Below the pieces are notes generated by a model. The model saw only the letters and a program-made list of their open reading frames with translations, had not been told where the DNA came from and searched no databases. A program made the translations under genes and the position numbers. Below are positions 7,053-29,963 of a stretch of 38,931 nucleotides of DNA, piece after piece. Numbering within the stretch: position 1 is the first letter of the stretch; the number at the start of each line of letters is the position of its first letter. This stretch comes from Nocardia ninae NBRC 108245. Its GTDB lineage: Bacteria; Actinomycetota; Actinomycetes; Mycobacteriales; Mycobacteriaceae. The stretch covers positions 1 through 38,931 of the forward strand of contig NZ_BJXA01000083.1 in the NCBI RefSeq assembly GCF_007990755.1, read 5' to 3'.

Positions 7053-8074
7053 CAGTGCGCCTCCCGCTGTTCTTCCTGGGTCCGAACGGCGTTGGCGCCG
7101 AGGATCTTCACCAGCACGAAGGCCACCGCGAAGATCATCAGGAAGGTGATCGTAGACAGCGCGGCCGCGCTGTTGGGACCCTGCCGGACCTGATCGACCA
7201 CCAGGATCGACACCACCTGGGTGGACGGGTTACCGAGGGTCATGATCGCGGGCAGGTCGTACATGCGCAGCGCGTCCATCGTCCGGAACAGCACCGCGAC
7301 CAGCAGCGCCGGCTTGAGCAGCGGCAGCGTGATCTGGGTGAACCGCTGCCAGGCGGTGGCGCCGTCGACCTTGGCCGCCTCGTAGACGTCGGCCGGGATC
7401 ACCTGCAGGCCGGCCAGCAGCAGCAGCGCCATGAACGGCGTCGTCTTCCACACGTCGGCGGCGATCACCGCGAACCGCGCGGGCCACGCATCGGAGGTCC
7501 ACAGGATGTTCGTGCCGAGTACCCGGTTCACCACCCCGTCGTACTGGAACATGAACTCCCACAGCCGCGCGGTGACCGCCGTGGGGATCGCCCACGGAAT
7601 CAGCACCGCGGCGCGCAGCAGCGCACGCCCCTTGAACGTCTTGCCCATCACCATGGCGAAGCCGAGGCCGAGCGTGGCCTCCAGCGTCACCGTGACCACG
7701 GTGAAGAACAGCGTGACCAGGATGGCCGCCCAGAACTGCGAACCGAGGTTGCCGGTCGGGCAGCTGACCATCTCGCCGCCCGCCTGGCATTGCTGCAGCA
7801 GCCAGTGCGTGTAGTTCGAGAAGCCCGCGCTGCCGCCCTCGACGAACATGCCCGTCGCCGGGTCGAGACCCGAATCCTTCTGGAACGACATCCACAACGC
7901 CCGGATGACCGGGTAGCCGATGACCACGGCCAGCGCCAGCATCACCGGCGCGACGAACATCCAGGCTTTGCCGGAGCGCCGCATTTCCAATGCCAGGGTC
8001 TCGCCGAGGCCACGCTTGCGTGGCAGGAATTCCTCGCTCGGCACAGTGCTGGCCGCTCCCGAAGGATCCGACAC
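7052..8074 (-). CDS. Sugar ABC transporter permease, MalF/SugA type
   Basis: A 340-residue permease paired with the SugB-like subunit. A cytosolic tail of about 35 residues is followed by six predicted membrane segments; the large external loop after the first contains FVEGGSAGFSNYTHWLLQQC and a second Cys in SCPTGNLGS, which may form a disulfide. The EAA loop is YEAAKVDGATAWQRFTQITLPLLKP (about 233-257). The GTG at 8074 has GGAG 9 bases upstream, and the gene starts 47 bases after the binding-protein gene. With the SugB-like subunit it would form the membrane channel; a compatible ATPase is encoded alone at 16416-17501. Confidence 0.88.
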   Translation of the reverse strand: MSDPSGAASTVPSEEFLPRKRGLGETLALEMRRSGKAWMFVAPVMLALAVVIGYPVIRALWMSFQKDSGLDPATGMFVEGGSAGFSNYTHWLLQQCQAGGEMVSCPTGNLGSQFWAAILVTLFFTVVTVTLEATLGLGFAMVMGKTFKGRALLRAAVLIPWAIPTAVTARLWEFMFQYDGVVNRVLGTNILWTSDAWPARFAVIAADVWKTTPFMALLLLAGLQVIPADVYEAAKVDGATAWQRFTQITLPLLKPALLVAVLFRTMDALRMYDLPAIMTLGNPSTQVVSILVVDQVRQGPNSAAALSTITFLMIFAVAFVLVKILGANAVRTQEEQREAH

Positions 8075-8121
8075 CGTTTCTCTCTCCTACGGGTCTCGTC
8101 GGGTCCGCTGCGCTATCCGCT

Positions 8122-9423
8122 CTACGATCCCGCGGTCTCGATGCCCTTCTGCATCCCGATGATCGCGTCATCGATGGTCTTGGTCTGCTTCAGCGCAGCA
8201 TAAGCGTTGTCCTGGATGGCTTTCGACACCGCCGGGTAGAAGGGGGTGACCGGCCGCGGCACCGCGCTGGAGATGGAATCCTTGAGCGCGGGCAGGTACG
8301 GCATCTTCGCGATCAGCGCCGGGTCGTCGTACATCGAGGCGCGCACCGAGGGCAGCGCGCCCGAGGCGACGATGTGCTGGGCGTCCTCGCTGATCAGGAA
8401 GCGCAGGAAGTCCAGCGCCGTGGCCTTGTTCTTGGAGTAGGCACTGATCGCCGCGTTGTAGCCACCGAGGGTGGACGCGCCGACACCGTTCTCGCCGGGC
8501 AGCGGGGCGACACCGAACTTGTCCTTCACCGAGGAGGCGTCGCCGCCGACGTCACCGTAGGTGGACGGCCACGAACGCAGGAACATCAGCTTGCCCTGGG
8601 CGAACGCGTTGCTGCTCTCCGGCTCCTTGAAGGTGATCGCCTCCGGCGGGATGTCGCCGTTCTTGTAGGCGTCGACCAGGACCTTCAGCCCGGCCCGGGA
8701 CTGCGCGCTGTTCACCGTCGGGGTCTTGCCGTCGGCGCCGACGAAGCTACCGCCGTAGGCGTTGATCACCTCGGCGGTGTTCACCGTCAGGCCCTCGTAC
8801 GGCGCGAACTGACCGGCGTAGCAGCCGATGTTCTGCTCCTTGGCGAGCGGGCACTGGTCCAGCAGCTCTTTCCACGTCTTGGGCGGGTTGGGCACCAGGT
8901 CTTTGCGGTAGAACAGCAGGCCGCCGTTGGTGTTCCGGGGCGCCGCGTACAGCGTGTTGTTGTAGGTGGCGCTGGCGACCGGCGGGGAGAGCAGCGCGGA
9001 GGTGTCGATGGCGAAGGAGTCCTTCAGCGGCTGGATCCAGCCCTTCGCGGCGAACTGGGCGGTCCACGGCACGTCCAGCGCGACCACGTCGTAGTCGGAC
9101 TGCTTGGAGCGCATGTGCTCGACCAGATCGTCGAACTGCTGCGAGGCGTCGTTCGACTGCTCCTTGAACGTCACCTGCTCGTCCGGGTGCGAGGCGTTCC
9201 AGCGCTCGATGAGCTGCTTGACCGCACCGGTCTCGGTGGTGTCCTTGCCCTCGACGTAGGTGATCGGCCCGCGCCCGGTGAGGTTCTGGCTCGTCGGACT
9301 GCCCCCGCTGTCACTGGAGCAGGCGCTGGTGAACGTCGCCGTCAGCAGCGCGACCGAGACAGCCGCGAGCGCGGCCTTCGGTACGAGCGACGTACGTAGG
9401 GACGACACCTTTTTCACAGCCAT
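8122..9423 (-). CDS. Sugar-binding lipoprotein of an ABC importer (LpqY-like)
   Basis: A 433-residue extracellular binding protein. The N-terminus is a lipoprotein signal: positive MAVKK, a hydrophobic stretch, and lipobox TSAC with Cys35. Further on it shares landmarks with mycobacterial LpqY: VVALDVPWTAQFAAKGW, LYAAPRNTNGGLLFYRKDLV, LGGYNAAIS, GALPSVRASMYDDP and VPRPVTPFYPAVS. LpqY binds trehalose released from trehalose mycolates; the same or a related alpha-glucoside is likely here but not proved. The ATG at 9423 has GGAG 8 bases upstream; the much longer open frame to 9789 would destroy the signal peptide. First gene of a three-gene operon that lacks its own ATPase. Confidence 0.85.
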   Translation of the reverse strand: MAVKKVSSLRTSLVPKAALAAVSVALLTATFTSACSSDSGGSPTSQNLTGRGPITYVEGKDTTETGAVKQLIERWNASHPDEQVTFKEQSNDASQQFDDLVEHMRSKQSDYDVVALDVPWTAQFAAKGWIQPLKDSFAIDTSALLSPPVASATYNNTLYAAPRNTNGGLLFYRKDLVPNPPKTWKELLDQCPLAKEQNIGCYAGQFAPYEGLTVNTAEVINAYGGSFVGADGKTPTVNSAQSRAGLKVLVDAYKNGDIPPEAITFKEPESSNAFAQGKLMFLRSWPSTYGDVGGDASSVKDKFGVAPLPGENGVGASTLGGYNAAISAYSKNKATALDFLRFLISEDAQHIVASGALPSVRASMYDDPALIAKMPYLPALKDSISSAVPRPVTPFYPAVSKAIQDNAYAALKQTKTIDDAIIGMQKGIETAGS

Positions 9424-21721: not shown

Positions 21722-21897
21722 GGCTTGCCCGCCTCTCCGCGTATTCAGGCCAGACTCAGGCGCGGGAGCGGGGCGTTGGCGGCCGGCGGGGAGTAGGTGG
21801 GCTGGTCAGCCCGTGCCCGGTGAGTTACCCATGTGCTGGCGAGATCAGTCGGCCCGCCCGGTGACCGGATAGCCGGTCAGGGAAAAACCCAGGGCTC

Positions 21898-21910
21898 TAG
21901 AGTCATCCCC
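21898..21910 (+). promoter_or_regulatory. Leaderless promoter of the epoxide-hydrolase-like gene
   Basis: TAGAGT (21898-21903) is followed by 7 bases and then GTG at 21911. No Shine-Dalgarno is present. This decides the start codon in favour of 21911 over the longer open frame. Confidence 0.55.
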
Positions 21911-22750
21911 GTGATCGAGGCGATTGAGATTCCTACCGCTGCCGGGACGTTCGATGCGCTGTCGAGTGGGGAAGCCGGTGGGCGGGAAGTCTTGCTGCTG
22001 CACGGGTTTCCGGAGGCGGCGATCGAGTGGGAATTCCAGCTGCATGCGCTCGGTGGCGGTGGGTGCCACGTGGTGGCGCCTGATCAGCGGGGGTACTCGC
22101 CGGGTGTGCGGCCGGACAAGGTGGCCGACTATCGACTCGAGGAATTGGTCGGCGATGTCATCGCCATCGCCGACCAATTGGGTTGGCAGCGGTTCGATCT
22201 GGTCGGGCACGACTGGGGGGCTTATGTCGGGTGGGTGGCAGCGGCGGATATCCCGGAACGGATCCGCAGTTTCACCGCGGTGTCGCTGCCGCATCCCGCC
22301 GCCTTCCTGCGGGCAATGACCGAGGACGAGGATCAAGCACAACGGTCGCAATACTTTTCGCTGCTCCGGAAACCGCGGGTGGCGGAGCGGGCGCTACTCA
22401 TGGACGGCGGGGCGGGCCTGCGGAAGATCTTCGAATGGAAGATCGACGAGGAACGGATCGACAACTACGTGCACCGGCTCGCACAGCCGGAAGCGCTCAC
22501 GGCGGCGCTGAATTGGTATCGCGCAATGCATCTGTCCGGACCGACCGGCCCGGTATCGGTGCCGACGCTCTACGTCTGGAGCACCGACGACAGCACCGTC
22601 GGCTCCACGGCTGCCCTGGCCACCGAGAAGTACGTGACCGGCCCGTATCGATTCGAAATGCTCGAGGAAGTGTCGCACTGGATCCCCGAACAGGCGCCCG
22701 AGGAATTGACCCGCCTGATCATGCAACACCTCCTCGCACACCGCACCTGA
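21911..22750 (+). CDS. Alpha/beta hydrolase, epoxide hydrolase-like
   Basis: A 279-residue enzyme. The oxyanion motif HGFPE (31-35), the nucleophile elbow GHDWGA with Asp101, and the catalytic His in EEVSHWIPEQAPEEL identify the Asp-nucleophile branch of the alpha/beta hydrolases, which includes epoxide hydrolases and dehalogenases. HGFPE and DQRGYSPG favour epoxide hydrolase. The cap (about 130-215) has NYVHRLAQPEALTAALNWYRAM with a Tyr that could polarise an epoxide. The reaction expected is opening of an epoxide to a diol; the substrate is unknown. It is monocistronic, follows the His-rich gene, and its GTG is set by a -10 box 7 bases upstream. Confidence 0.87.
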   Translation: MIEAIEIPTAAGTFDALSSGEAGGREVLLLHGFPEAAIEWEFQLHALGGGGCHVVAPDQRGYSPGVRPDKVADYRLEELVGDVIAIADQLGWQRFDLVGHDWGAYVGWVAAADIPERIRSFTAVSLPHPAAFLRAMTEDEDQAQRSQYFSLLRKPRVAERALLMDGGAGLRKIFEWKIDEERIDNYVHRLAQPEALTAALNWYRAMHLSGPTGPVSVPTLYVWSTDDSTVGSTAALATEKYVTGPYRFEMLEEVSHWIPEQAPEELTRLIMQHLLAHRT

Positions 22751-23195: not shown

Positions 23196-23228
23196 CTCAG
23201 GCGCACAGCGTGACTCAGGCGCACAGCG
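23193..23228. repeat. Perfect 18-base tandem duplication across two stop codons
   Basis: TGACTCAGGCGCACAGCG is present twice without a gap (23193-23210 and 23211-23228). The first copy starts with the antitoxin stop and the second contains the stop of the convergent CHAT gene. It looks like a recent slippage duplication that separated two nearly overlapping stops. Confidence 0.85.
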
Positions 23229-24477
23229 TCGCGAACGCCGACCACAGCAGCGGCGAGTGCTCGATGCTGCGCTCGGTGCGCCAGGCCTGCAGTCGCTCGC
23301 GCTGCCAGTGCGCGAGCGCGGTCACCGGGTCCAGTTGTTCGTGCGCCGCGTCGATGGCGCAGATGGCGTCTTGCAGCGGGTGGGCGTGCGTGGGTGCGCC
23401 CGCGATGCGGTGGAAGGCGAGGTCGGTGGGCAGCGGCCAGCGACTGGCCGTCACCAGTTCGGCACCGTTGTTGATCATGGCGGCGGTCAGCCCGAGCGCC
23501 TCTGTGAAGCGCAGGTCCCCGCCGCTCTCGCAGGCGATCAACGCCACCCGGCTGGGGATGGGCCAAAGCTCGCGGCCGTCCGTGGGTTCCGTGGCGAGGG
23601 TGTGCGTGCCCAGCAGGAAGTCCTTGGCGGACAACGGTCGATGGGTGCGGTTCGGCACGGCGAAGCCGAGAGTGTCGGCGGTGCACGGTAGATGGAGTTC
23701 GGCGTCTTCGCTCTGCCCGGATTCCGGTGGTGCGGCGGTGACGTGGCCGACGTAGATCAGTCGGCTCGCGCCGTCGCGTAGGGCCTCGCTCAGCCAGCTG
23801 CGGTCGATATCGGTCCGGCGGAAAACTTCCGTCGGGTCGACTACCGCGGGTAGTAGGCGATCCTGTGCTGCGTACGCGGCAATCCGTTGGGTCAGTGGGG
23901 CTTTTGCCGCCATGCGACCGAGCACCGAGCCGAGCGTCGAATCGGCCCGGAAGCCGGGAATGCGCGGGTCAAGCAGGGCCACGACGGGTGCCTGCTGCGT
24001 CTCGGACCACCTGCGCGACAGGCGTTCCGGCGCGTGCACAATGCTGGCCGGTGCCAGCAGGCTCACGTCGGCGATATCGATCAGCCGAACCTCCGGGCCG
24101 GGGGCGATGAGCTCCCACGGCACCTGAGCCACCCGTGGCGATGGTTGCAGGCGAATGTGCGGACGGACTCCGCGCTGCGACAGCTCGTACAGCTGGGCGG
24201 CCAGGCCCTGCGGCAGCAATGCCCGGGAAAGCGCCTGGGCGACAAGGTACTCGGTGTCGTGGGCGGCAAACGCTCCGGTGGTCATCGATCGTTCGAGACC
24301 GCCCGGCTCAGCGGGGTGCGGCAGGGCGTCGGCGAGTCGTCGCACGGCCGCCGCCACCTGCTCACCCGGCAGCATGGCGGCCCCGCGCGGCGCGCTGTCC
24401 CCGGCCCAGCGCCAGGACATGTACACATCGCCGGCATCCGCCATGCGCACCACGACGGTCGGCTGGTCCTGCGTCAT
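23215..24477 (-). CDS. CHAT domain protein (caspase-like cysteine protease)
   Basis: A 420-residue protein whose C-terminal two thirds are a CHAT domain of the caspase/separase clan. The catalytic pair is His245 (RLIYVGHVTAA) and Cys316 (VALIACESGGD). Other family marks are VAQVPWELI (about 117-123), the GLTAAMINNGAELVTASRWPL segment after the Cys, and a closing helix with HSPLLWSAFATLCA. The N-terminal 100 residues (VVVRMADAGDVYMSWRWAG) have strand-rich character and may be a sensor. The expected action is site-specific cleavage of a partner protein, by analogy with CHAT proteases activated through TPR partners. The ATG overlaps the TPR gene stop by 4 bases, so stoichiometric production is likely. 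The target is unknown. Confidence 0.88.
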   Translation of the reverse strand: MTQDQPTVVVRMADAGDVYMSWRWAGDSAPRGAAMLPGEQVAAAVRRLADALPHPAEPGGLERSMTTGAFAAHDTEYLVAQALSRALLPQGLAAQLYELSQRGVRPHIRLQPSPRVAQVPWELIAPGPEVRLIDIADVSLLAPASIVHAPERLSRRWSETQQAPVVALLDPRIPGFRADSTLGSVLGRMAAKAPLTQRIAAYAAQDRLLPAVVDPTEVFRRTDIDRSWLSEALRDGASRLIYVGHVTAAPPESGQSEDAELHLPCTADTLGFAVPNRTHRPLSAKDFLLGTHTLATEPTDGRELWPIPSRVALIACESGGDLRFTEALGLTAAMINNGAELVTASRWPLPTDLAFHRIAGAPTHAHPLQDAICAIDAAHEQLDPVTALAHWQRERLQAWRTERSIEHSPLLWSAFATLCA

Positions 24478-25994
24478 ACCGTCAGCACTCGGCTGTCGCG
24501 GATCACCCGGCCGTAGCGTTGTTCGGCGGCGGCGATGTAGGGGTCCAAGGCGATCCGGCCCTCCGCGGCCAACGCCAGTCGTGGCGGCGGCGACACCGGA
24601 AGGCCCGCGCTCGCCGCGACTTCGGCCAGCGCGGCACCCAGCTGGAGCGCGGTCGTACCGGCTCGTCCGGCGGGATCGGCAGGGGGGTCGAGCAGTTCGA
24701 GCGGCAGCCGAACGGCACGGCCGCCGTCGGATCTATCGATATTCACAGTGGTACCCGCGCATTGTGTTTCGATCAGGTCGGCAAGGAGCAGCCCGTTGCC
24801 CGAGAGGTAGGCGAAGCGGAAGGCCAATCGCATGGCCGGGTCGGCGATCTGGCGGTTCCACTGGTCGCGCTGGTTGCCGTTGGGGAGGGTGTAGCGCACG
24901 GCATCGATGGCCAGCGCGGCCGGAACGGCGAGGTCGACCGCCTGGGCGAGCAGCTCGGGTGCGGGCGCGTCCGAGGCGGCGACGGCACCTTCGAGCAGCG
25001 TCGCATGCCAGAAATCCAGCTGAGCGCAGTGCAGCCCGAGGCCACGTTCGGCATACGCGCCGAACGCCTCGGCCAGCAACGCCTCGCACTCGGCGAACCG
25101 GCCGGTTTTGAAGGCCACGGTGGACAGGCGCATGCGCAGGTCGGCGGCGTCGAGCACCGCGCCCGACTCGACGAAGTAGGCCAGGCTGCGGCGGTACAGC
25201 TGCTGCGCCTGGCCGAGATCGTCGCGGCCCTCGGCGAGGAAAGCCAAGGTCTTGAGCCCGATTCCGGCGCGGTAGCCCAGCCCGGCCCGTTCGAAATACT
25301 GCTGGCTGGCGCGCAGCGGCGCTTCCGCCTCGTCGAAGCGTTCGACGCGGACCAGCATGGTGGCGAGGTTCTGCTGGGTCTCGGCGACGGCATTGCGGTC
25401 ACCGGCCGCCTCGAACGCGGCGAGCGCCTGGTGAGCGAAGTCGACGGCGAGGTCACGGCGTCCGGTCTCGAAATACGTTGCGGCCAGGTTCATCAACGGA
25501 TGTCCTGCCAGGTGCGGCGCGAATCGCCATGCCGCGTCCAGGGACTCGGTAGCCAGTTCGGCGGCGTCGGCCCAGTGCTGACGATGCAACGCCACGGCGG
25601 TCAAGGACAGCAGGCAGGAGACGCGCAGTACGCCCTGATCGGTGGTGTCGGCGAGCAATACGCGCGCCTGTTCCAATGCCGCTTGCGCTTCGTCGAGTTC
25701 GCCGAGGTGCTGCAACGCCTGCGACATGTTGACCAAGGCGGTGGGGCGCAACCGTGGCGCGTCCGCAGGCATCGCGGCGAGCGCTTCGCGGTACAGGCTC
25801 AGCGATCTGACGTGGTCACCGAGCTCGTCCGCCATGCTCGCCGCGTTGACGATGGCGCCGAGGCGGACGTCACCGGTGGTGGTCCGGGCGGCGTCCTCGA
25901 AAATTCTCAGGGCCCCGGCTGTGTCGCCGCGGCTGTACGCGTCACCGCCCGCGACCAGGAGCTCACGACCGTCGGCGGGTGCTTCTTCGGTCAT
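24474..25994 (-). CDS. Tetratricopeptide repeat (TPR) protein, partner of the CHAT protease
   Basis: A 506-residue soluble protein. Residues about 8-330 form seven or eight helical TPR-like repeats, for example GGDAYSRGDTAGALRIFEDA, NMSQALQHLGELDEAQAALE, NLAATYFETGRRDLAVDFAH and LKTLAFLAEGRDDLGQAQQL, with the typical A-x-x-x-G-x-x-x-x-A spacing. The last 170 residues are not TPR and contain RDQWNRQIADPAMRLAFRFAYLSGNGLLLADLIETQ, a helical segment, and a Pro-rich stretch near LPVSPPPRLAL. It starts 1 base after the stop of the upstream gene and overlaps the CHAT gene by 4 bases. It would act as the scaffold or regulatory subunit of the protease. Confidence 0.82.
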   Translation of the reverse strand: MTEEAPADGRELLVAGGDAYSRGDTAGALRIFEDAARTTTGDVRLGAIVNAASMADELGDHVRSLSLYREALAAMPADAPRLRPTALVNMSQALQHLGELDEAQAALEQARVLLADTTDQGVLRVSCLLSLTAVALHRQHWADAAELATESLDAAWRFAPHLAGHPLMNLAATYFETGRRDLAVDFAHQALAAFEAAGDRNAVAETQQNLATMLVRVERFDEAEAPLRASQQYFERAGLGYRAGIGLKTLAFLAEGRDDLGQAQQLYRRSLAYFVESGAVLDAADLRMRLSTVAFKTGRFAECEALLAEAFGAYAERGLGLHCAQLDFWHATLLEGAVAASDAPAPELLAQAVDLAVPAALAIDAVRYTLPNGNQRDQWNRQIADPAMRLAFRFAYLSGNGLLLADLIETQCAGTTVNIDRSDGGRAVRLPLELLDPPADPAGRAGTTALQLGAALAEVAASAGLPVSPPPRLALAAEGRIALDPYIAAAEQRYGRVIRDSRVLTV

Positions 25995-25995
25995 G

Positions 25996-27018
25996 TCAGA
26001 AATCCGAATCCGATTCGGCGGCAGCGATTTCGGCCAACAGGGGAGCGTCAGTGGGATGGTCGGTCGGGTCGGTCGCGCGGCTCAGTCGCGACAGGGCGAA
26101 CTCGCGCACGCGGCGGCGCATTTCCGGGCTGCCCGGCTCGGGGCCGCCGACACCCGGCACGTATACCTCCACGGTCACAGTAGATTCAGCGCCTTCCGGT
26201 GCCGGCACCTCGACGCCCCACACGTCCCCGGCGAGTGTCAGTGGCGCCACGGCGGTGCCCGAGGATGTCCGTACCAGCGCGTGCGGATACAGATGTGACG
26301 GCACGTCGCCACGCGCTGCGGCAACCACCCGCACCAGAACGGTCGTAGTTCCGGCTCCGCGCAACACTTCCCACGACACGGCTTGCTCCGACGCGTCGAG
26401 CAGTCCGGGCGGGCAGCGGTGCCAGTCCCACCCGCCGCTACCCCTGGCCAGTACCAACGCCCCGCTCGGCACAGTCGTCGCCGGGCCTGCCGCGAGCGCG
26501 TAATCCTCTGCCCGCCCGGGTGTATCAGCCAGTTCGTCGGCGTGCTGTTCAGCCGCTTCGCTGTACTCGTCCGCGCCGTCGACGATCAGCTCGCATGCTG
26601 CCGACAGCGTCGCGATCTCTTCGCGCAGCAGCCGCTCGTCCAGCGGGGCGATGCCGTCGATGATCGACGCGGGCCACCACCGTGCCGCCCAGTGCGCGTA
26701 CCCGAGTCGCCACGCATCGGTCACCAGCTCCGGCATCCCGGGCACGGCAACCAGTTCCCCGGTTTCCCCCGCATCGACCGCCAGCGCGACCTGCTCACCG
26801 AAGACTGCCCATAGCCACCCTTGCGCGAGCTTCACATCATCGAGCACCGCCGCCGGAAGTGACTGCCCGGCAAGCAGACTCCAGGTCAGGTGCCCGCCCG
26901 CCGCCTCCAGTACCAGCACGTCGATGGCCGCCGTTTCGTCGAGAACGGTCGGCGCTCCTTCGGGCCCGATGATCCACAGCCCGTCGGCTGCCTGCCGAAC
27001 CTGCACCGTGCCGGTCAT
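25996..27018 (-). CDS. Uncharacterised protein of the CHAT-TPR operon (340 residues)
   Basis: I do not recognise this family. The N-terminal 130 residues alternate strands and helices (VQVRQAADGLWIIGPEGAP, IDVLVLEAAGGHLTWSLLAG, QGWLWAVFGEQVALAVDAGE); a helical acidic part follows (ELIVDGADEYSEAAEQHADELAD in two pieces, about 165-190); then a beta-rich part with VSWEVLRGAGTTTVLVRVVAA and STVTVEVYVPGVG. The end is a basic-then-acidic tail finishing IAAAESDSDF. No signal, membrane segment or catalytic motif is seen. The ATG at 27018 shares one base with the stop of the upstream gene; the longer frame to 27228 lies inside that gene and is rejected. It could be sensor, substrate or inhibitor of the protease. 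Confidence 0.75.
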   Translation of the reverse strand: MTGTVQVRQAADGLWIIGPEGAPTVLDETAAIDVLVLEAAGGHLTWSLLAGQSLPAAVLDDVKLAQGWLWAVFGEQVALAVDAGETGELVAVPGMPELVTDAWRLGYAHWAARWWPASIIDGIAPLDERLLREEIATLSAACELIVDGADEYSEAAEQHADELADTPGRAEDYALAAGPATTVPSGALVLARGSGGWDWHRCPPGLLDASEQAVSWEVLRGAGTTTVLVRVVAAARGDVPSHLYPHALVRTSSGTAVAPLTLAGDVWGVEVPAPEGAESTVTVEVYVPGVGGPEPGSPEMRRRVREFALSRLSRATDPTDHPTDAPLLAEIAAAESDSDF

Positions 27019-28391
27019 CAGCTCGCCCTCGATTCCGTCGAATCCGATTCGGCCGCAATGGCGCTCAACGCCAGCTTGACCCGCGTCCGATGATCGAGGA
27101 TGACCGAGCGCGCCACGCCGTCGAGCAGATCCCACAGCTCGTCCGGGTCGTGCACCGCGAACTCGCGCACATCGCGCCCGTGCAGGCGAACCCACAGTCG
27201 CCGCAGGTACGGACGCCACGGTGTGCACAGCTCGGCGGCGATCGCCGCGAGCGGACCGGTCGGCGGCGACTCGGTGCCGACCCGCACCACCAACCGCCGT
27301 GCCTGTAGCACGTAGGCCTCACGCTGCCACCTGCTGTTGATGACTCGATGTGCCGTGGTCTCCGTCGAATCCTGCACTGCTACAAGGGCGATGCCGACCT
27401 CGGAATGCTGGCCACGAGCAGTGGGCTCGATCGGCGCGAGCCCGTTCGCCAGCGCGACTCCGGCCGTCGCGGCCACCCGCAGCGTCTCGTCCAGCAGCGC
27501 CCATGGCGCACAGCTCCTGGCGATCTCGGCGGCCACCAACTCCGGAACGGTCGGCAGTTCAGCGCGTTCGCTGGAAGCCTGGAGTGCCGTGAAAACCCGT
27601 TCGTAGACAGTGCGATCGAATGGCAACCCCAGGGTGGAGGTCGAGGCGGACGCACCGACCGCGGGGGACTGCGGCACGACGTGCACGGTCAGCCCCAATT
27701 CGGCTGCCGAGTAGCCGGATTCGTTGCGCCACAGCCGTATTCCGGCATGAGTTCCCGCATGCCCGGCCACCAGTCGATCCCAGGCCGCCTGCCCGTTGTC
27801 CCGCTGCTGCCCGAGCCGCGCCGCGGCGCAGGCGTCGAGTAGCGCAGTGCACGCCGCGCTGTGGTCACCGCCCGCCGGGCCCGTTACCGGCCGTCGGCGC
27901 CAAGCGACCTCGATCAGCCCGGCCAGCTCTGGAGCCCGTTCGGCGACATACTCTTTCAACGCCTGAGTGGTGCGCCCCGCCGCATACTCGTGCACGTCGC
28001 GCAGTGTCGCTTCGGCTACCGCCCTGTCCCGCACCGTATCCGGCATGCCGCGGGTCGTCGCCAACTCGAAACAGCGCTGGAAGTACAGATCCTGCGGGTT
28101 GCCCTCGGTGATTCGTAGTGCCCGCCGTACCTGCTTGAGCAGCGTGAACCAGGCCGCCGTCGCGTGCAGCACGTCCGCCGCGGCGTGCACCCTGGCCGCG
28201 AGCAGCACCGCGCCGTCGGCCGTCACGATGGGCCCGGCGCACGCGGGATGCTGCACCGGCCGGATCACCAGCGGATCGAGGATCAGTTTCACCGTGCGGC
28301 GCAACGGCCCGCCGTGCGGACCGCTGAGCGGTTCGACGCCGTCGAGCTTGCGCCACACCTCGTCGAGCACCATGGCGCGCGGTCGTCGCAT
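27018..28391 (-). CDS. Uncharacterised first protein of the CHAT-TPR operon (457 residues)
   Basis: I do not recognise this family. The protein is mainly helical and Arg-rich in the first half (HAAADVLHATAAWFTLLKQV, RDRAVAEATLRDVHEYAAG, ACTALLDACAAARLGQQRDN), with a central segment ELGLTVHVVPQSPAVGAS and a C-terminal part rich in Trp/Arg (WRPYLRRLWVRLHGRDVREF, HDPDELWDLLDGVARSV). The last residues, AIAAESDSTESRAS, resemble the tail of the next protein. No membrane segment or nuclease/NTPase motif is seen. TAACCT (28403-28398) lies 6 bases before the ATG at 28391, so the message is probably leaderless. ATG at 28373 (MVLDEVWRKL) is an alternative start. Confidence 0.75.
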   Translation of the reverse strand: MRRPRAMVLDEVWRKLDGVEPLSGPHGGPLRRTVKLILDPLVIRPVQHPACAGPIVTADGAVLLAARVHAAADVLHATAAWFTLLKQVRRALRITEGNPQDLYFQRCFELATTRGMPDTVRDRAVAEATLRDVHEYAAGRTTQALKEYVAERAPELAGLIEVAWRRRPVTGPAGGDHSAACTALLDACAAARLGQQRDNGQAAWDRLVAGHAGTHAGIRLWRNESGYSAAELGLTVHVVPQSPAVGASASTSTLGLPFDRTVYERVFTALQASSERAELPTVPELVAAEIARSCAPWALLDETLRVAATAGVALANGLAPIEPTARGQHSEVGIALVAVQDSTETTAHRVINSRWQREAYVLQARRLVVRVGTESPPTGPLAAIAAELCTPWRPYLRRLWVRLHGRDVREFAVHDPDELWDLLDGVARSVILDHRTRVKLALSAIAAESDSTESRAS

Positions 28392-28397
28392 TCGACC

Positions 28398-28418
28398 AGG
28401 TTAACGGACTTATGTCCG
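28398..28418 (-). promoter_or_regulatory. Leaderless promoter and small palindrome of the CHAT-TPR operon
   Basis: On the minus strand TAACCT (28403-28398) is a -10 box 6 bases before the ATG. CGGAC-TTAT-GTCCG (28405-28418) lies immediately upstream, in the spacer towards the -35, where a repressor would block RNA polymerase. The operator role is inferred. Confidence 0.4.
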
Positions 28419-28518
28419 ATTCGACCCCGGCAAAACCTGGGATCGGTAGGCCGCGAACCGTTCCTACCTTTCTCGTATCGGCCCAGACACCCAGGGCCGA
28501 ACGAACTCAGGAGAAACC

Positions 28519-29049
28519 ATGAACACCAAGTCCGTCACCGCAGCCCTCGTCGCTTCCGCCGCCGCTGCCGCCCTCTTCGTCACCGGGTGCAGCGACAACG
28601 CGAGCAGCACCCCGGCCAAGTCCTCGGCCGCCCCCGCCCCGCAGGCCGCTCCGGCGCCGTCGGGCAAGTCCGCCGCCTCGGTCGACGGCAAGGCGTTCGA
28701 CGCGACGTTCACCACCACCTGCGCCAAGCAGGGTGGCACCTTGGCCCTCGCGCTGACCGACGCCGCCAACGCCGCCTACGGCAACCTCTCGGTCAGCGCC
28801 ACCGTCACCGGCACCGACACCGTGCAGGCGGTGGGTATCGCGGGCAGCAAGGGCGGCGACGCGGGCCAGCCGTACGCGATCGGCTACGGCAACGGGATGC
28901 CCGGCGGTTCGGCGAAGCTCACCAAGGACGGCAACACCTACAAGGTGACCGGCGAGGGCGTCAGCGCCGACCTGGCCAACCCGCTGGCCGGCCCGAAGAC
29001 GTCGAAGTTCGACATCACCTTCGCCTGCTCGACCGTCGTCGGCGGCTGA
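28519..29049 (+). CDS. LpqH-like lipoprotein antigen family protein
   Basis: A 176-residue surface lipoprotein. The signal MNTKSVTAALVASAAAAALF ends in lipobox VTGC with Cys24, to be lipidated. An Ala/Pro/Ser linker (about 25-55) is followed by a beta-rich domain that begins VDGKAFDATFTTTCAKQGG and ends FDITFACSTVVGG; its two Cys probably form a disulfide. This is the layout of the mycobacterial 19-kDa antigen LpqH. LpqH-type proteins are abundant on the cell surface and bind Toll-like receptor 2 in pathogens; the physiological role is not settled. AGGAG lies 6 bases before the ATG. A strong hairpin follows 44 bases after the stop. Confidence 0.85.
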   Translation: MNTKSVTAALVASAAAAALFVTGCSDNASSTPAKSSAAPAPQAAPAPSGKSAASVDGKAFDATFTTTCAKQGGTLALALTDAANAAYGNLSVSATVTGTDTVQAVGIAGSKGGDAGQPYAIGYGNGMPGGSAKLTKDGNTYKVTGEGVSADLANPLAGPKTSKFDITFACSTVVGG

Positions 29050-29162: not shown

Positions 29163-29963
29163 ATGAAAAACATCCGCTGGATCACCGTCGCCCTCGCCGC
29201 CCTGGCCGTCGGCTACTACCTCCTGCACGGCCTCACCTACACCAGTTCGTCGGACTACGAGCCAGCCGGCCTGGGCTGGATCGGCTGGCAGATGGTGCTG
29301 CCGATCCTGGCGCTGACCCTCGTCCCCATGGTCTTCGCCTTCACCGGCGACGGCATCATGGCGGCCTTCACCGGGCGCAACAGCGCCGAGTTCCGCGACG
29401 GCCTGGTCGGGCTCGGCACCATCACCTCGTTCGCGCAGACCGGCGTGACCGTCAACGACCAACCGCAGGTGCGCATCCAGTTCAGCGTTGAGGGCATCGA
29501 CGGGAAGACCTTCACCGCCACGGCGAAAATGATTGTGCCGCTGACGGAATTGGCGCTGCTGCAGCCGGGGGTGGTGCTGCCGGTGCGCTACCTGCCTGGC
29601 CGGACCGACAAGGTCGAGGTGGATATGTCGGGTGATGCGTCCATGGCGCAGCAGGCGATGAACGAGTCGATGATCCGCAAGGGCATCACCACCCGGCACA
29701 AGCTCGACATCGCCGAGCGCGGCATCGCCACCCAGGCGGTGGTGCAGTCGCTGTCGGTCACCGGCGAGATCCGGGACGGGCACTCGAAGATCGCGCTCGG
29801 GCTGGTCGTCACCCGCCCGGACGGATCGACCTTCGGCACCCGAGTGGAGAAGTTCCTCGCACCGAGCAGTGTCGGGCAGGTGCAGGTGGGCCGCATCCTG
29901 CGGGTGCACTACCTGCCGGAGAACGAGCAAGAGGTCGTCATCGCCCTTGCGGTGAATGCCTAG
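29163..29963 (+). CDS. Membrane protein with two N-terminal membrane segments and a duplicated beta-rich domain
   Basis: A 266-residue protein. Hydrophobic segments lie at about 4-23 and 38-61. After them two similar units follow: the first (about 85-155) has VNDQPQVRIQFSVEGIDGKTF, then LLQPGVVLPVRYLPGRTDKVEV; the second (about 190-264) has VVQSLSVTGEIRDGHSKIAL, TRPDGSTFGTRVEKFL, then VQVGRILRVHYLPENEQEVVI. Each ends in a V-G-x-x-L-x-V-x-Y-L-P element, typical of the DUF3592-like fold. Function is unknown; a cell-envelope role is plausible. AAGGA lies 6 bases before the ATG, and it probably has its own promoter because a hairpin separates it from the LpqH-like gene. Confidence 0.72.
   Translation: MKNIRWITVALAALAVGYYLLHGLTYTSSSDYEPAGLGWIGWQMVLPILALTLVPMVFAFTGDGIMAAFTGRNSAEFRDGLVGLGTITSFAQTGVTVNDQPQVRIQFSVEGIDGKTFTATAKMIVPLTELALLQPGVVLPVRYLPGRTDKVEVDMSGDASMAQQAMNESMIRKGITTRHKLDIAERGIATQAVVQSLSVTGEIRDGHSKIALGLVVTRPDGSTFGTRVEKFLAPSSVGQVQVGRILRVHYLPENEQEVVIALAVNA

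Follow-up and report, generated by a model that had tools for sequence, protein, structure and literature searches.

The window, a stretch of 38,931 nucleotides from Nocardia ninae NBRC 108245 (contig NZ_BJXA01000083.1), carries a conserved module in which a caspase-like CHAT protease and a TPR scaffold are encoded with two partner proteins, A and B, and lie next to genes for a lipoprotein (L) and a membrane protein (M). That the module is real and conserved is near certain, and its features suggest a switch in which the protease is coupled to the cell envelope, rather than a phage-defence cassette of the ordinary type. The envelope link, which follows from two lines, i.e. gene content and a shared DNA element, is the better supported half of this reading and can be called probable; the cleavage step is a prediction. 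Taken as a whole, the reading that TPR-CHAT acts as a proteolytic switch coupled to the membrane within an envelope regulon, in the way set out below, is in our view about evenly balanced between right and wrong.

The four core genes lie on the minus strand. A and B share a single base (27018), B and TPR are separated by one (25995), and TPR and CHAT overlap by four (24474–24477); this arrangement, described in an earlier sequence-only reading, was confirmed from the open reading frame coordinates. For B, the mechanical open reading frame begins further upstream, and 25999–27018 translates to 340 residues from a methionine. The CHAT protein matches PF12770 at 42.2 bits (Pfam cut-off 24). H245 and C316, which from the earlier reading and general knowledge rather than a structure we take to be the catalytic pair, are invariant across 29 aligned sequences, the window copy included, in agreement with the earlier claim that both are intact. 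By family match and invariant His/Cys alike, its sequence indicates that the protein is a member of the CHAT protease family. The scaffold was recognised by TPR_12 (64.4 bits) and several other TPR models. In contrast, no family in Pfam, PADLOC or NCBIfam was matched by A or B up to E 1, and a Pfam scan of all 39 aligned A and 39 aligned B sequences gave isolated weak matches in one or two members only. A search of PDB sequences with A gave no match up to E 5; its alignment (39 sequences) has 45 invariant columns, 17 of which are Arg, Lys or Trp.

This CHAT type was found in 125, B in 124 and A in 123 of 148 sampled Nocardia genomes. Among the genomes listed, those without A are also without B and CHAT, except for G095, in which a contig end lies 73 bases from the beginning of B, and G054, which has a divergent CHAT paralogue only. 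A was further detected in 49 of 298 genomes (9 of 76 genera) of an order sample, in 12 of 396 genomes of a phylum sample (one a weak match) and in 128 of 198 genomes of group g2, presumed to be Mycobacterium (a few as fragments). Neighbourhoods were read for hand-picked genomes with A, 20 from the 43 non-Nocardia ones of the order sample and 20 from the 123 in Nocardia, and for four named loci, giving 42 loci once two duplicates were removed. All four core genes are present together in 41 of the 42, a co-occurrence conditioned on A or B, as loci were selected by a match to one of these; in L088, the exception, A is truncated and the other core genes are missing. The recurrence of the same four families shows that their grouping is not due to chance. 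The sequence-only proposal of a conserved TPR/CHAT protease module with two unfamiliar partner families therefore stands: the genes are not rarely together, and neither partner matches a metabolic family.

The gene set is constant while its order differs between groups. Most loci have the order A-B-TPR-CHAT, and TPR-CHAT-A-B is seen in g2 and in the f3 genus, the full g2 order being L-TPR-CHAT, M, then A-B. TPR and CHAT are fused in a single frame in 5 of the 41 loci and on a Streptomyces plasmid (L131). Conservation between Nocardia loci extends to many of the flanking genes and, together with the wide presence and constant composition of the module, argues for largely vertical inheritance. 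In L091 (4218–5884) approximately 1.7 kb separates A from B, and the A frame has an overlapping second match, so that this is possibly a rearranged copy; one Nocardia genome (G081, contigs C3 and C34) holds two near-identical copies of the module.

The span of 23215–28391 originally assigned to the module proved too narrow, as it reaches 29963 on the opposite strand. The L and M families there were found by comparing locus flanks. In addition to its two N-terminal hydrophobic segments, M has a third, weaker one at 123, and its match to DUF3592 is weak and below cut-off. The M family is present in 40 of the 42 loci, L088 included; in Nocardia it diverges from A, in g2 it separates CHAT from A, and in three g39 loci, where no hydrophobic segment was seen, it follows CHAT. 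The L family was found in 21/21 Nocardia, 1/1 Antrihabitans, 7/7 g2 and 1/1 f3 loci, and in none of the remaining 12. It lies between A and M in Nocardia and upstream of TPR on the same strand in all seven g2 loci, with little or no gap (L093 excepted). In eight loci (all five of f15 and three g21/g46 loci of f14) L is replaced by a gene N adjoining M, whose product shows a weak PQQ/BamB-type match and, in the cases tested, a single N-terminal hydrophobic segment. The core genes and M are usually accompanied by a surface component, either L or, in other families, membrane-anchored N. On the Streptomyces plasmids L130 and L133 (around 8000–9000, 16.7–17.1 kb) the M match beside A looks broken.

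The second line of evidence comes from the A/L intergenic region, which in 21 sequences (19 other Nocardia, Antrihabitans and the window) contains a strongly conserved block. Read toward L, M or N, its core is TGGG[AT]TCGGTAG. A set of 46 loci, comprising the window, 41 of the 42 loci and four plasmid records, was scanned with four exact variants of the element, yielding 56 sites in 43 loci, compared to none for the reversed patterns in 699,309 bases. In 41 of the 46 loci a domain of L, M or N follows the element within 420 nucleotides in the same orientation, and in 7/7 g2 loci the element precedes both L and M. Sites without a recognised L, M or N behind them occur in L131 and L133, and no exact site was found in L078, L084 and L107. 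Extra sites are located elsewhere in L086, L090, L130 and L133; in L130 and L133 the element occurs twice more approximately 8 kb from the M match next to A. Many Nocardia and two Streptomyces loci have the element in an inverted-repeat form, which was also observed 11.3 kb from gene A and away from the module in one genome (G061:C1:6781726-6781751). The element is promoter-like and would drive L, M or N. The same genes despite a different order, and the element before L, M or N, together support a conserved envelope-linked module, as far as can be judged from sequence.

Whole-genome scans of 12 genomes returned 34 matches to the exact core against 1 for the reversed control. Each genome has one of these matches at the module (12 in all); 19 of the remaining 22 were examined, the genes behind them being judged by eye. 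A gene for a membrane protein, secreted protein or lipoprotein follows 12 of these 19 sites, and another gene or no clear gene follows the remaining 7. Among these 12, in three Nocardia (L172, L184 and L185 1079–1474) the element precedes, at short spacing to the start codon, a DUF4870-type membrane protein gene, the Pfam assignment having been run on L185 only. In three g2 loci it precedes a protein of 89–98 residues with two hydrophobic stretches. A second M-like membrane protein (27 bits) lies behind the element in L183 (1576–2424), with a C-terminal SHOCT match just below cut-off. The sequence-only reading had left both phage defence and an envelope or stress response as options; it is the latter that gains most support, from the adjoining M and L and from the element before other membrane and secreted-protein genes, while phage defence fits the distribution less well and is less likely.

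The expression of A appears to be separately arranged. A TANNNT box is located 6 nucleotides before the A start in 20 of 21 other Nocardia loci, compared to 32 of 3974 control ATGs with such a box at 4–9 nucleotides; in 11 of 21 non-Nocardia loci it is found 6–7 nucleotides before a possible A start. The TAACCT box of the window supports the assignment of the A start to its ATG, and the box suggests a leaderless, separately controlled transcript.

Table 1 Features of the module and its surroundings in the window
Feature	Position	Strand	Remarks
CHAT (caspase-like) protease	23215–24477	-	420 aa, His245/Cys316
TPR scaffold	24474–25994	-	506 aa, TPR_12 Pfam match
Gene B	25996–27018	-	340 aa, ATG at 27018
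Gene A	27018–28391	-	457 aa, no family assigned, probably leaderless start
Gene L, Myco_19_kDa (PF05481) lipoprotein	28519–29049	+	Pfam 86.4 bits
Gene M, membrane protein	29163–29963	+	266 aa, two N-terminal hydrophobic segments and beta domain
B C-terminal tail LLAEIAAAESDSDF	25999–26040	-	candidate docking motif
B linker motif DYALAAG, residues 172–178	26485–26505	-	candidate CHAT cleavage or recognition site
TAACCT box	28398–28403	-	6 nt before A start codon
Conserved element TGGGATCGGTAG	28438–28449	+	promoter-like, pointing at L-M
Inverted repeat GGTAGG-N12-CCTACC	28445–28468	.	right arm overlaps putative -10 TACCTT (28465–28470)

We propose that A and B are constantly made cytosolic partners, and that M, with L or N outside, would report the state of the envelope. 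B would dock on the TPR-CHAT pair via its conserved C-terminal tail, and activated CHAT would cut B at ALAAG in a disordered linker, splitting its two domains; the output would feed the envelope-gene regulon marked by TGGG[AT]TCGGTAG. The predicted structure of B consists of an N-terminal alpha/beta part, a disordered linker (164–179), an immunoglobulin-like beta sandwich (approximately 188–291) and C-terminal helices. Residues 164–179 are the sole stretch with a predicted local distance difference test score (pLDDT) below 50, and 3 of the 16 invariant B columns sit within it. Among 39 B sequences, L175, A176 and A177 of the linker motif are conserved in all, and A174 and G178 in 38; in the tail, E330 and A333 are each conserved in 37. 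These motifs are proposed as cleavage and docking sites, respectively, and for the cleavage site our confidence is lower than for the reading as a whole. A longer chain can be drawn, in which an envelope signal, received by M with L or N, would cause TPR-CHAT to cut B (or A), so that a regulator of TGGG[AT]TCGGTAG promoters might be freed or activated. Such promoters would drive L, M and, in Mycobacterium, also TPR-CHAT, providing positive feedback, and a wider membrane and secreted set across Nocardia, Mycobacterium and relatives. As a complete sequence of events this chain is speculative and rather unlikely.

A related arrangement was found around a further CHAT gene of this type, a more distant second copy present in 17 Nocardia genomes, with G054 having no main copy. 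Nine of its neighbourhoods were read (L146–L154). Genes X and Y, encoding proteins of approximately 450–480 residues, precede CHAT in the order X-Y-CHAT in eight (L147–L154; X is split in L152), L146 has TPR-CHAT without X or Y, and a TPR match is present in five of the nine (weak and distant in L153). The sister module resembles the main one in its homologous CHAT (hhalign 100 percent), in having two preceding genes in matching order and in related tail motifs. In contrast, no similarity of X and Y to A and B could be detected (none between Y and B by profile), the neighbours include ThiF-like and FrsA-like genes and a conserved 500-residue protein without a Pfam match, and the M family was not matched. 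We read these sequence relationships as partner exchange around a shared protease. The Y tails contain LAE in four of eight cases and LCE, LTE or LTD in the others, comparable to LLAE of B; an LAE-type tail is a possible common docking site of B and Y.

The nearest mechanistic parallel, by analogy, is the Craspase arm of type III-E CRISPR (Csx29, Csx30, CASP-sigma). The available text of PMC10028731 describes a TPR-CHAT protease that cuts Csx30, which is proposed to relieve sigma-factor inhibition. Shared with Craspase are the TPR and CHAT His/Cys pair and neighbouring genes of unassigned fold as candidate substrates, and the sigma-factor logic, as given in that text, would fit the promoter-like element. 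The module differs in that TPR and CHAT are usually separate genes, in its membrane protein and lipoprotein partners, and in being common across a genus. The EACC1 and EACC2 systems, as far as the accessible parts of Kaur et al. 2020 and 2021 describe them, likewise pair a caspase-like peptidase with a component that stays constant and, in EACC1, is inserted in the membrane; activation by proteolysis is proposed for them. In those sources many variable domains are fused to the caspase, whereas in the loci read the module CHAT occurs alone or TPR-fused only, and none of the EAD families reached E 1 in Pfam for the four core proteins. No published description of the module was found in the open-licence literature searched, and it is best placed among the CHAT/TPR proteolytic systems, as a new form of these.

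The alternative of anti-phage abortive infection would have A or B sense a phage product and TPR-CHAT kill or arrest the cell, with M and L as membrane effectors or anchors. A TPR-CHAT protease does work in immunity in the Craspase account (PMC10028731, available text), and the sister module with its unrelated X and Y is what partner exchange in a conflict system would give. A is, moreover, found on six plasmid records, five of them Streptomyces plasmids of 1.2–1.6 Mb; four of the six are typed mobilizable, the three Streptomyces records opened are linear, and all three Streptomyces plasmid loci read carry all four core genes. Against this alternative stands the largely vertical presence of A, which 123 of the 148 Nocardia and 128 of the 198 g2 genomes contain, and no match was found in 50,697 phage records, for which A alone was searched. 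PADLOC gave no match for A, B or CHAT up to E 1 and only weak ones for TPR (best E 0.0037). The accessible portion of Kaur et al. 2020 names variable effectors as a mark of genuine conflict systems; none was seen in the module, and by that measure the unvarying make-up of the loci read speaks against a conflict system of the classic kind. Phage defence is accordingly held to be a rather unlikely explanation.

Alternatively, the module could serve cell death, development or protein quality control without involving the envelope, L and M being neighbours for other reasons. Several death pathways make use of CHAT and related caspase-like proteases, and a genome may encode several members of the 19-kDa-antigen family. 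As flanks are generally conserved in Nocardia, adjacency of L and M there says little by itself. However, in g2 both L and M accompany the module despite a different gene order, and the shared element also links the two, making a non-envelope role unlikely. Membership of the CATRA conflict systems, a relation raised in the sequence-only reading, is highly improbable and was rejected. The systems share CHAT and TPR components with a partner protein, and the host genome (G000; 9.7 Mb in 204 contigs) holds both kinds, its CATRA locus being on another contig (G000:C13; L135 1598–9629) and encoding a TPR-CHAT protein of 1084 residues, a CATRA-N/C protein of 572 and a CHAT protein of 642. In the operon itself no CATRA-N/C protein was identified: CATRA-N and CATRA-C gave no match to the 39 A and 39 B members at E up to 0.1, and a small CATRA alignment (nine rows) compared with those of A, B, CHAT and TPR gave hhalign probabilities of 0.07–0.27 percent. 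The distribution is also different: among 200 order genomes CATRA-N was detected in 7, and the 14 g2 genomes listed all lack it; A is carried by 11 of those 14.

Further observations concern the host genome and the surroundings of the module. The nearest named record for B, at 91 percent, is from N. suismassiliense. A partial CHAT match (model positions 2–69, 26.5 bits) was seen at G000:C46:32246-32470 in a frame of 798 residues, and an alpha/beta-hydrolase gene (window 21833–22750, plus strand) is a neighbour of the module in nine locus rows from Nocardia, including two duplicates.

CHAT proteases are mostly discussed as sporadic immune effectors. The module described here is a stable multi-gene CHAT unit, present in most sampled Nocardia and in approximately two thirds of sampled g2 genomes. 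A membrane protein and a 19-kDa-antigen-type lipoprotein are linked to it by the position of their genes as well as by a shared DNA element. Its two uncharacterised families, the candidate motif for cleavage and the candidate promoter can each be tested directly. If the envelope-coupled switch proposed here is true, caspase-like proteolysis would have a common envelope-signalling role in Nocardia and presumed Mycobacterium.

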